DNA from: Sedimenticola sp.
GTDB taxonomy: Bacteria; Pseudomonadota; Gammaproteobacteria; Chromatiales; Chromatiaceae
NCBI GenBank assembly: GCA_027068915.1
Contig: JAMOLT010000060.1
Location: forward strand, 1 to 49,488
Length of the DNA stretch: 49,488 nucleotides
Direction of reading: 5' to 3'
The translations under genes and the position numbers were made by a program. Positions 1 through 13,374 of this stretch are shown in pieces (the first letter of the stretch is position 1; every line of letters starts with the position of its first letter). The notes beneath the pieces are model-generated. The model was not told the origin of the DNA. It ran no database searches and saw only the letters and a program-made list of their open reading frames with translations.

Positions 1-158
1 GCCACTTTGGCTTAACTTAAACAGGGTGTTAACGGCATTGTACCTAACGCCATGAAGCCGCCCCAAGGGGCTAATGTAGATCACAATGATCCGGATGAAA
101 TCATAGCACGACCCTACAGCTAGTGTAGAGCACCTGAAAATCAGACCAGAAAATAATT

Positions 159-187
159 TTGACAAGAAAGGCCTAATATTAGAAAAT
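159..187 (+). promoter_or_regulatory. Candidate sigma-70 promoter of the small RNA
   Basis: A perfect -35 hexamer TTGACA (159-164) is followed after 17 bp by a weaker -10, GAAAAT (182-187, 4 of 6 consensus bases). A start near 194 would give an RNA of about 100 nt that ends at the terminator at 266-295. The 158 bp to the left show no gene. Confidence 0.5.
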
Positions 188-193
188 ACTCAT

Positions 194-295
194 GTGCTGA
201 TTTTCCTCCCCTCCTCCCCTTTGGAGAATCAGTGTATACACCATCCTCCTTTGGTGGTTATTATTTAGCGTGGCATCTTGCCACGCTATTTTTTT
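194..295 (+). ncRNA. Candidate small RNA with two CCUCC (anti-Shine-Dalgarno) loops
   Basis: No reading frame fits here, but the RNA folds by eye into three consecutive hairpins. Hairpin 1 pairs 197-206 with 223-232 (10 bp, one G-U) and exposes a 16-nt loop that contains CCTCCTCCC at 210-218. Hairpin 2 pairs 239-243 with 252-256 and exposes the loop TCCTCCTT (244-251). Hairpin 3 is a 10-bp intrinsic terminator followed by seven T. A TTGACA promoter lies at the right distance upstream. RNAs with CCUCC or CCUCCUCCC loops, such as the CcsR-type RNAs of Rhodobacter, are known to act by pairing with purine-rich target sites. Function here is inferred. The alternative, that this is only the 3' end or leader of a transcript starting outside the window, is not excluded. 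Confidence 0.55.
266..295 (+). terminator. Intrinsic terminator of the candidate small RNA
   Basis: Perfect 10-bp stem (266-275 with 279-288), 3-nt loop TCT, followed directly by seven T. It lies between the upstream promoter and the rplM promoter, so it isolates the two transcription units. Confidence 0.8.
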
Positions 296-315
296 GCCAG
301 GTCAACACAAAGGGC

Positions 316-344
316 TTGAATCTCTTTTTCAGGTCGGGTATTAT
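316..344 (+). promoter_or_regulatory. rplM-rpsI promoter with GC-rich discriminator
   Basis: TTGAAT (316-321), 17-bp spacer, TATTAT (339-344), then the GC-rich stretch TCGCGCCC directly downstream of the -10. Such discriminators are typical of ribosomal-protein and rRNA promoters under ppGpp/DksA (stringent) control. Transcription would start near 352, leaving a leader of about 45 nt before rplM. Confidence 0.65.
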
Positions 345-397
345 TCGCGCCCTTTCGTGGAGTATGGCGAGACTTCGCTATTTTGGGAACGAGACAA

Positions 398-826
398 ATG
401 ACAACGGTAAGCGCTAAGTCGGCGGAAGTACGCCGGGAATGGTATGTAGTAGATGCAGAGGGCAAGACCCTGGGTCGCATGGCCAGTGAAATCGCACGTC
501 GGTTAAAAGGCAAGCACAAGCCTATATATACACCGCATGTGGACACGGGCGATTATGTTGTGGTGATCAATGCAGAGAAATTGCATGTTACCGGCAACAA
601 GCTGCAGGACAAGATGTACCATCATCACACCGGTTACATCGGTAACCTGAAATCCATTAATTTGGGCAAGCTGCTTGAAAAAGCACCTGAGCGCGTACTG
701 CAAAGCGCGGTCAAAGGCATGCTGCCGCGCACCCCTCTGGGACGCTCCATGCTGAAAAAACTGAAGGTTTATGCCGGCACTGAGCATCCGCACAGCGCCC
801 AGCAACCCAAACCCCTCGACATCTGA
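398..826 (+). CDS. rplM: 50S ribosomal protein L13
   Basis: Early-assembling protein of the large ribosomal subunit that binds 23S rRNA. The product is 142 residues, the same length as the E. coli protein, and begins [15 protein letters not shown], followed by the family hallmark [16 protein letters not shown]; a second typical stretch, RAVKGMLPR-like (here [14 protein letters not shown]), lies near residue 110. An in-frame ATG at 383 is possible, but 398 gives the family length and N-terminus. It is followed after 25 bp by rpsI, the conserved L13-S9 operon order. In E. coli L13 represses its own operon; no specific operator was identified here. Confidence 0.97.
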
Positions 827-5405: not shown

Positions 5406-5819
5406 TTACTTTTTTCTACTGGCTTTCTTTTTGACCACTTTCTTTTTCGCTACCTTTTTCCCAGCGGCTTTCTTTACCACTTTTTTCTTTGCTACTTTTT
5501 TCTTGGCTATCTTCTTTTTGCTTACTTTCTTCTTTACTGCTTTCTTCGCAACCTTTTTCTTCGCTACTTTTTTTGCAACCTTTTTCTTGGCTGCTTTTTT
5601 TACGACTTTTTTCTTTGCTGTTTTCTTTGCTGTTTTCTTCGCAACCTTTTTCTTCGCTAGTTTTTTTACAACCTTCTTCTTGGCGACTTTTTTCTTAGCA
5701 ACCTTTTTCTTGGCAACCTTCTTCTTGGCCGTTTTCTTCAGTACTTTTTTCCTGGCTGTACTCTTGGAAACAGCCGCCTTCTTCTTTGTGGTTTTTTTCT
5801 TTGATGTCTTCTTTGCCAT
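5406..5819 (-). CDS. Lysine-rich histone H1-like protein (AKKK repeats)
   Basis: A 137-residue protein made almost entirely of K, A and V: after [14 protein letters not shown] it consists of imperfect 4-6-residue repeats (KKVAKK, KKTAKK, KKVVKK) to the end. It resembles the C-terminal tails of histone H1 and bacterial H1-like proteins (AlgP/AlgR3, Hc1/BpH1 types), which bind and compact DNA. It has no globular domain or membrane segment. The start at 5819 is preferred over 5831 because GGGGGA sits just upstream. A hairpin (5850-5855 with 5864-5869) lies in the leader. Repeat number in such genes is often variable between strains. A role in nucleoid binding or gene regulation is inferred from composition alone. 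Confidence 0.85.
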
Positions 5820-5878
5820 GAGATCCCCCATTACAGTTCAATACACAAGAGGTGCGAAAGTTTGCACCTGCTATGGCG

Positions 5879-6688: not shown

Positions 6689-6886
6689 GAAGACATCCTC
6701 CGCCTGTGCCGTTGCTGATTTGTGACCTTGAACCGGCAGGTTCAAGTGGGAGTCCCGGCTGCAGTTCAGGCTTTCCGCTCAAGGCGGACATGCACACCGC
6801 TGCAGCAACCTGGACTCCCTGTCTAGTGTACTAAGGCTCAAGGGTTTACTAAGCCAGCTCACAAACACCGCAGAGGATGCCTTCAA
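6689..6886 (-). ncRNA. ssrS: 6S RNA
   Basis: RNA of about 198 nt that mimics an open promoter and sequesters the sigma-70 RNA polymerase holoenzyme in stationary phase. Evidence is position and structure. It lies exactly between zapA and fau. The ends form a 15-bp closing stem (6870-6884 with 6689-6703, with G-U pairs). Near the 3' end, on the minus strand, is CACTTGAACC, a short loop, then GGTTCAAGGTCACA, which closely matches the E. coli 6S element CTTGAACC...GGTTCAAGG. Exact ends are estimates; no separate promoter could be pinned down. Confidence 0.88.
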
Positions 6887-13133: not shown

Positions 13134-13153
13134 TGCCCCTCAAACCCCAGCTT

Positions 13154-13341
13154 TCGTGGGAGAGACCAGTCCATGACTGGCGCCGAAGGCGCAATTCCGC
13201 CCGGAATCGCTCAGGCACACAGGACCACGAGGCATGCCATCACCGATGGCGGGTTGACTCTGGAGAGCGGCGGCTTCACCGTCCACCGACGGGGCAGGAT
13301 TCGGCAATATCGGATTCAAACTCTCAGGTACCGGGACAGAG
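13154..13341 (+). promoter_or_regulatory. Tandem glycine riboswitch
   Basis: Two consecutive glycine aptamers sit upstream of gcvT. Aptamer 1 (13154-13230) is closed by TCGTGG/CCACGA and contains GGAGAG-type (GGGAGAGACC), GCCGAAGGCGCAA and CGCTCAGGCA-AGGACC motifs. Aptamer 2 (13258-13341) is closed by CTCTG/CAGAG and contains TGGAGAGCGG, CCGACGGGGCA, AACTCTCAGGTA and GGGACAGAG. This architecture controls glycine cleavage operons in many bacteria and normally turns them on with glycine. GGGG just after aptamer 2 (13341-13344) could pair with CCCC directly before the gcvT start codon (13371-13374), suggesting translational control. That last point is inference. Confidence 0.92.
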
Positions 13342-13374
13342 GGGCGGGAATCCAGGACCAGATTGGAGAACCCC

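Follow-up and report, generated by a model that had tools for sequence, protein, structure and literature searches.

A conserved, structured small RNA gene with anti-Shine-Dalgarno loops upstream of rplM-rpsI, predicted by comparison in Sedimenticola and other Gammaproteobacteria

The Betaproteobacteria toxic sRNA family, RF02278, which reportedly goes back to Kimelman et al. 2012, includes S17 of Bordetella together with ncS27/bdhR1 and other double-hairpin RNAs of Burkholderia. The "toxic" in its name, to go by the available parts of two reports, refers to growth inhibition when members are cloned or overexpressed (PMC4603805, PMC5688073), and in the latter report overexpression of ncS27 slows growth and an antisense directed at its CU-rich end has the reverse effect. 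The accessible portion of a preprint on S17 (PMC11722255) places this RNA next to coq7 and describes it as Hfq-dependent and as repressing its target via Site 1, the first C/U-rich site, a mode of action backed by compensatory mutations; overexpression hardly affects the growth of E. coli, yet defined mRNAs are controlled. In the part that is available, a 2020 paper calls the RF02278 group exclusively betaproteobacterial (PMC7011215), and a 2022 paper, likewise available in part, holds a single prediction of such an RNA in Aeromonas (PMC8780938). Another described system is ar14 (RF02344), or NfeR1, of the Alphaproteobacteria, which according to the visible part of its description has three anti-Shine-Dalgarno (anti-SD) hairpins with redundant CCUCCUCCC seeds (PMC10746234).

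The window considered here is a whole stretch of 49,488 nucleotides from a Sedimenticola sp. genome, and close to its start, at positions 159-295 of the forward strand, lies a predicted RNA gene. Its promoter, TTGACA-17-GAAAAT (159-187, with TTGACA at 159-164), matches 10 of 12 consensus positions and is overlapped in the -10 region by ATATTAGAAAAT (176-187), an element that is conserved in the promoter profile of relatives and unique in the window even when one mismatch is allowed. The predicted small RNA of about 102 nt occupies 194-295, its 5' end being placed 7 nt past the -10 hexamer, and it folds into three hairpins at -39.9 kcal/mol, compared with -16.0 +/- 2.55 in 200 shuffles (z = -9.4, 0/200 as good). 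Hairpin 1 (196-233; arms 196-206 and 223-233, loop 207-222) carries the anti-SD motif CCUCCUCCC (CCTCCTCCC) at 210-218; hairpin 2 (234-261; arms 239-243 and 252-256, outer pairs 234-236/259-261) carries UCCUCCUU (TCCTCCTT) as its loop at 244-251, where the unpaired probability is 0.99; and the third is an intrinsic terminator (266-295) consisting of a 10-pair stem at 266-288 and then a run of seven T. Downstream on the same strand, outside the RNA, are rplM (398-826, ribosomal protein L13) and rpsI (852-1244, ribosomal protein S9), both named by sequence recognition, and between the RNA gene and rplM sits a promoter-like TTGAAT-17-TATTAT (316-344), a consensus match only. Among reading frames of at least 60 amino acids, just two mechanical GTG frames, 232-417 (+) and 286-546 (-), touch the RNA. 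A preliminary description of this region had proposed the promoter, a strong terminator about 100 nt further on, the lack of a reading frame in between and the two stem-loops exposing anti-SD motifs, and each of these is seen here at the positions given. The motif itself would not have drawn attention, as CCTCCTCC occurs twice in the window where 2.0 occurrences are expected by chance, so the finding rests on structure and conservation. Elsewhere in the window are a 6S RNA (Rfam RF00013, 108 bits; 6693-6879, minus strand), a tandem glycine riboswitch with two RF00504 aptamers (13147-13349, plus strand) and an open reading frame (5406-5831, minus strand) whose KKxAKK-repeat product is very rich in lysine and alanine and, by eye, looks like a histone H1-like protein.

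At gathering scores no Rfam family matches the window copy or the RNA in 40 further loci, so the view that this is not a standard annotation holds for Rfam 15, and a literature search through titles and the openings of abstracts, with few subscription papers covered, gave no report of an rplM-linked gammaproteobacterial family. The CcsR RNAs (suhB, RF00519), which I take to carry CCUCCUCCC loops as well, had been offered in the preliminary description as a comparison; that comparison does not hold up, and membership was rejected, as no CcsR/suhB model is found among the 12 Rfam matches up to E = 10 in window positions 1-500. The best matches of the window copy in a permissive search are ar14 at 30.1, ncS16 at 26.6 and RF02278 at 24.4 bits. 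The window copy resembles ar14/NfeR1 (33 bits in locus L003, with the gathering score of 58.8 reached in neither) in having CCUCCUCCC in a hairpin loop and then a terminator; it differs in having two anti-SD loops on other stems where ar14 has three such hairpins (PMC10746234, as far as available), and the three identical CCUCCUCCC hairpins are not found here, since only loop 1 of the window has that motif, loop 2 being UCCUCCUU and the third hairpin the terminator. With ncS16 and anti-hemB of Burkholderia (RF02866, RF02837) it shares a CU-rich anti-SD stretch before a terminator, again below the cut-offs (ncS16 30.6 bits in L003, anti-hemB 32.0 bits in L027). The nearest models are thus ar14 and the betaproteobacterial RNAs, and the layout and the coq7 neighbourhood of relatives would point to RF02278.

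How widespread is such an RNA? A covariance model, R1, was made from 52 sequences including the window copy, with 24 pairs; its seed alignment A1 was reduced from 68 non-redundant members to these 52 by excluding 16 whose 5' parts were unusual. Because the core CCTCCTTTGG was the criterion by which A1 members were gathered, the invariance of loop 2 and CCTCCTTTGG in A1 is there by construction. Hairpin 1 was added to the model by hand from single folds, and RNAalifold run on A1 predicts the core and terminator helices and not hairpin 1. With R1, matches at E <= 0.01 are found in 155 of 369 genomes of the class and 118 of 272 genera (own genome counted), and are absent from 214 of the 369 genomes; conservation in relatives, on which the preliminary description had let its proposal depend, is therefore present. 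The own genome has two good matches, one of 63.4 bits in the window (194-294, itself a model sequence) and one of 75.2 bits, and blastn, besides recovering the second copy in the own genome, is positive in 31 of the 57 genomes from this family, a count that includes the own genome. A species-level genome collection has the core CCATCCTCCTTTGGTGG in at least 118 stretches, most of them labelled Chromatiales, Thiotrichaceae, Sedimenticola, Thioalkalivibrio or plain Gammaproteobacteria. Six core matches from other phyla (L051, L077, L089, L115, L118, L120) were rejected as chance, being without linker, promoter and T run. A scan of the phylum matched 9 of 299 genomes, all 9 from the same class, the share of the 299 that lies outside the class not being given. 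Plasmids gave no match to the RNA, and the six pattern matches in viral contigs all lack the linker CTCCTCCAT and show no TTGACA in the 140 bases before them. Two viral contigs, L152 (6361) and L154, have the core GCCCATCCTCCTTTGGTGGT followed by a GC-rich hairpin, either by chance or as a phage-borne relative.

A set of 100 matches was taken from 104 (omitting L156, which equals L002, L163 and weak second matches in L219 and L241); it combines automatically fetched loci with 60 hand-picked strong ones, is biased to high scores and counts some genomes more than once. Within it, 71 matches lie upstream of rplM-rpsI on the same strand, 7 beside queA and 22 with neither in the flanks, the distance to rplM ranging from 90 to 479 nt (median 157). 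R1 contains no information on rplM, so the recurrence of this gene next to the matches is separate evidence that they are genuine. Tandem copies, three or two in a row, are seen at L101 5787-6024 / L244 2046-2358 (three in L244), L223 2002-2219 and L228 1101-1336. A subgroup (L008, L027, L029, L161) has another conserved 5' part, by eye GGCCAAAGGC-GTATCG-AGTAG-GT, on the same anti-SD hairpin, which suggests that one seed module may sit on different 5' domains.

A typical member of the group consists of a TTGACA-N10-wATATwAGAnnnT promoter, a variable hairpin, the linker CUCCUCCAU, a hairpin with the loop UCCUCCUU and a terminator. A scored promoter was found in 110 of 138 distinct members, with exact TTGACA in 85 of the 110, and each TTGACA position is 92-100% conserved among the 86 members with 17-nt spacing and full flank, although the scoring favoured TTGACA-like hexamers and the profile includes near-duplicates. 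Outside the scored hexamers, profile positions 17-28 read A 85%, T 86%, A 76%, T 91%, W, A 86%. Among the 100 matches of the wider class set, only 51 have a comparable promoter pattern. The strongly conserved ATATTAGA upstream of and within the -10 (window 176-187) belongs in L003 to a longer palindrome, TTCTCTAATATTAGAGAA, and may serve as an operator or as a promoter element of an unusual kind.

Class-wide, over 102 distinct rows in an alignment (A2) that was fitted to the model and so leans towards it, 86.6% of pairs are standard, 21 of 24 are changed on both sides, and the covariation score is 0.515, against 0.07-0.11 with slid partners. The helices contribute unequally: the terminator is 94.4% paired with 9/9 pairs double-changed; hairpin 1 is paired in 74.6% of cells; and the core helix, hairpin 2, is 96.2% paired over the 102 rows with 2/5 pairs double-changed, nearly invariant and therefore with too little variation to test. 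At least two CCTCC motifs are present in 92 of the 100 matches and in 2.4% of their shuffles, a comparison in which the model itself favours the motif, as it favours both the exact CCTCCTTTGG (76/100 model-found members) and CTCCTCC (80/100). The first CCUCC has a mean unpaired probability of only 0.45 over 93 A2 members, so the form with two open loops is special to the genus of the window.

Within that genus all 15 genomes match at E <= 0.001 (own included; G749 only at 31.9 bits), four weak matches of 31.9-33.4 bits (L337, L345, L347, L348) having been left out of the analysis. The rplM-linked form is found in 13 of the 15, and all 13 have CTCCTCCCC in loop 1, a motif that the search model does not hold, the loop 1 columns being mostly gaps in A1. 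The stem changes around the kept loop, for example from CUGAUUUUCC/GGAAAAUCAG to CUGGCUUUCCC/GGGAAGCCGG, and in a MAFFT alignment of the genus (A3, with the fold of one row, L003, as its structure) 99.2% of cells are paired and 7 of 28 pairs double-changed; for helix 1 these figures are 98.3% and 6 of 14. One of five measures applied to A3, the count of pair types, does not exceed that of shuffles (199/500). Across the 13 copies the unpaired probability is 0.97-1.0 for CCTCC in loop 1 and 0.68-0.99 for loop 2. The linker of the window type is without CUCCUCC, and the motif stands, lengthened, in loop 1 instead, so the genus, in these modelled folds, has a two-open-loop variant of its own. The independent small RNA with two anti-SD loops that the preliminary description put forward, with compensatory stem changes around a kept CCUCC loop, hence passes comparison on covariation class-wide and in the genus, on the loop core and on rplM synteny.

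A second, canonical copy lies beside queA in 10 of the 15 genomes (in the own genome at G000:C10:84704-84783, L002/L156). Here queA is on the opposite strand to the RNA, and tgt flanks the other side in 9 of 10, the remaining one, L325, being a contig fragment with partial queA only. All ten have a TTGA-N6-TCAA palindrome whose centre lies 35 nt (nine copies) or 36 nt (one copy) upstream of the last base of a GAnAAT -10 element, three of the copies having other GAnAAT words too. This puts the palindrome at about -41.5, the class II position of FNR/CRP proteins, and the queA-linked paralogue is likely to be under FNR/CRP-class control. In the majority of the genus, then, the RNA is present twice, each time behind a different promoter.

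The likeness to RF02278 can now be set against the differences. Typical members resemble RF02278 in that CUCCUCC immediately precedes an anti-SD hairpin and a terminator, the models match both ways, and coq7 is in the neighbourhood of many loci of each; among the gammaproteobacterial RNAs this CUCCUCC, about half unpaired, is present beside the anti-SD hairpin and terminator in typical members and in the second copy of the own genome. The second copy scores 35.9 bits with RF02278, and neither own copy reaches the gathering cut-off of 50; 7 of 18 loci of the same family match at E <= 0.1 (31.9-38.1 bits), all below it as well. Class-wide, 67 of 229 genomes match at E <= 0.001, two of them over the cut-off and the next best at 48.7 bits, and 0 of 14 well-known control genomes match. 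One family containing an above-cut-off genome, which from its genes is probably Burkholderiales, has RF02278 matches in 35 of 40 genomes, 27 passing the cut-off, and in 29 of its loci (26 over cut-off) ilvA adjoins in 29, osmC in 28 and coq7 in 24. Where rplM-linked members have 1.3 kb or more of upstream sequence (65 loci), coq7 is nearby in 24 and missing from the flank in 41; the window itself starts only 158 bases upstream of the promoter, which bounds the view of upstream genes there. In the reverse direction, R1 weakly matches two genomes of the RF02278-rich family (32.2 and 36.2 bits), the match in G441 being the RF02278 locus itself, and misses the RF02278 genomes G163 and G279. The full gamma-type core CTCCTCCATCCTCCTTTGGTGG with a terminator is also present in L078 (369-385, minus strand), a contig that bears the title Gallionellaceae and may be a bridge to betaproteobacterial RF02278. 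In contrast to RF02278, the gammaproteobacterial RNAs score below the cut-off, have their own promoter with the conserved ATATTAGA and a 5' hairpin that RF02278 lacks, and lie beside rplM, not ilvA/osmC, and the genus of the window has the motif in the loop of hairpin 1 and no CUCCUCC in the linker. By all comparative signs this is a conserved, structured small-RNA gene, of a gammaproteobacterial group that would be related to RF02278 and ar14 and lie outside the thresholds of both.

As to function, the RNA is most probably a free-standing, Hfq-type, trans-acting small RNA that represses several mRNAs by pairing. I infer its transcription, Hfq binding, target repression and regulators as follows: RNA polymerase would start near 194 from a housekeeping-type promoter and stop at the terminator near 295, and the folded RNA would present two C-rich loops, CCUCCCCUCCUCCCC and UCCUCCUU, either of which could pair with purine-rich Shine-Dalgarno regions of several mRNAs, block 30S binding and lower translation, with Hfq probably on the U-rich tail. 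The own genome has an hfq gene (102 bits). A search of that genome for AAAGGAGGA-N3-9-ATG gave 6 sites and 2 for a reversed-pattern control, an excess too small to claim targets; by eye, and apart from any family search, the reading frames at five of the six resemble those of a TusC/DsrF-type protein, PilV, MurB, LemA and a REP-associated transposase, and the sixth site would be at an internal start of a sucA-like gene. The loop-1 pattern GGGAGGAG-N3-10-ATG gave 11 sites and 6 in the control. The rplM-linked copy would be made from a constitutive-type promoter and the queA-linked copy from behind an FNR/CRP-class site at about -41.5, so that a similar pairing core could be delivered under both growth and redox/anaerobic control.

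The position directly upstream of rplM on the same strand, in 71 of 100 members, might suggest instead a cis element, a leader or attenuator in which occasional read-through of the terminator would control L13-S9 synthesis, and core-leader complementarity is indeed slightly raised (10 of 70 at p <= 0.05, on average 0.7 kcal/mol below shuffles). This is distinctly unlikely, given that the median p of that complementarity is 0.375, that the distance to rplM varies over 90-479 nt, that rplM has a promoter-like site of its own past the terminator, and that a similar RNA occurs beside opposite-strand queA (7/100; 10/15 genus genomes) and elsewhere in 22/100. With complementarity to the rplM leader hardly above shuffles, the location may be only an inherited place. 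A reading as nothing but a strong terminator and a conserved DNA element, with no functional RNA, is extremely improbable, as compensatory changes in hairpin 1 around a kept loop core and the class-wide covariation point to RNA.

Loop 2, UCCUCCUU, presumably resembles the 16S anti-SD, and this counts for a global translation brake in which the loops mimic the 16S rRNA 3' tail, titrate Shine-Dalgarno sequences broadly or occupy a ribosomal site, coupled to ribosome synthesis by the rplM location. The extended conservation around loop 2 is unusable as an argument for it because members were collected by that core, and the 16S tail pattern gave a single match in the own genome, with flanks unlike 16S. 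RF02278 members inhibit growth when cloned or overexpressed (PMC4603805, PMC5688073, in their available parts), but S17 hardly affects E. coli growth and controls defined mRNAs (PMC11722255, a preprint, in part), and a brake of this kind is unlikely, if conceivable. C-rich loops would pair equally well with GGAGG-rich RNAs, and a sponge for purine-rich small RNAs, raised in the preliminary description, or a protein-binding decoy, may be imagined; as far as the available parts of the reports on S17, ncS27 and NfeR1 go, these studied relatives act on mRNAs, which makes it very unlikely.

An RNA that lies upstream of rplM-rpsI in many families of the class and is missed by Rfam would count among the broadly conserved small RNAs of Gammaproteobacteria, and it would extend a group described, in the available part of the 2020 paper, as exclusively betaproteobacterial (PMC7011215). 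It would also offer a series in which the anti-SD seed, placed in the linker by most members, has an open loop as its site in a single genus, and a way to test whether redox state, the ribosomal-protein locus and translation control are linked in bacteria that oxidise sulfur. I give about an even chance to the bolder proposal of an ancient core riboregulator, an anti-SD RNA at the coq7-rplM junction since before the beta- and gammaproteobacteria split, largely missed by annotation, that would tie the repression of many mRNAs to a ribosomal-protein locus and in this genus would have divided in two, the rplM-linked form being constitutive and having both motifs in open loops, the queA-linked form being controlled by FNR.
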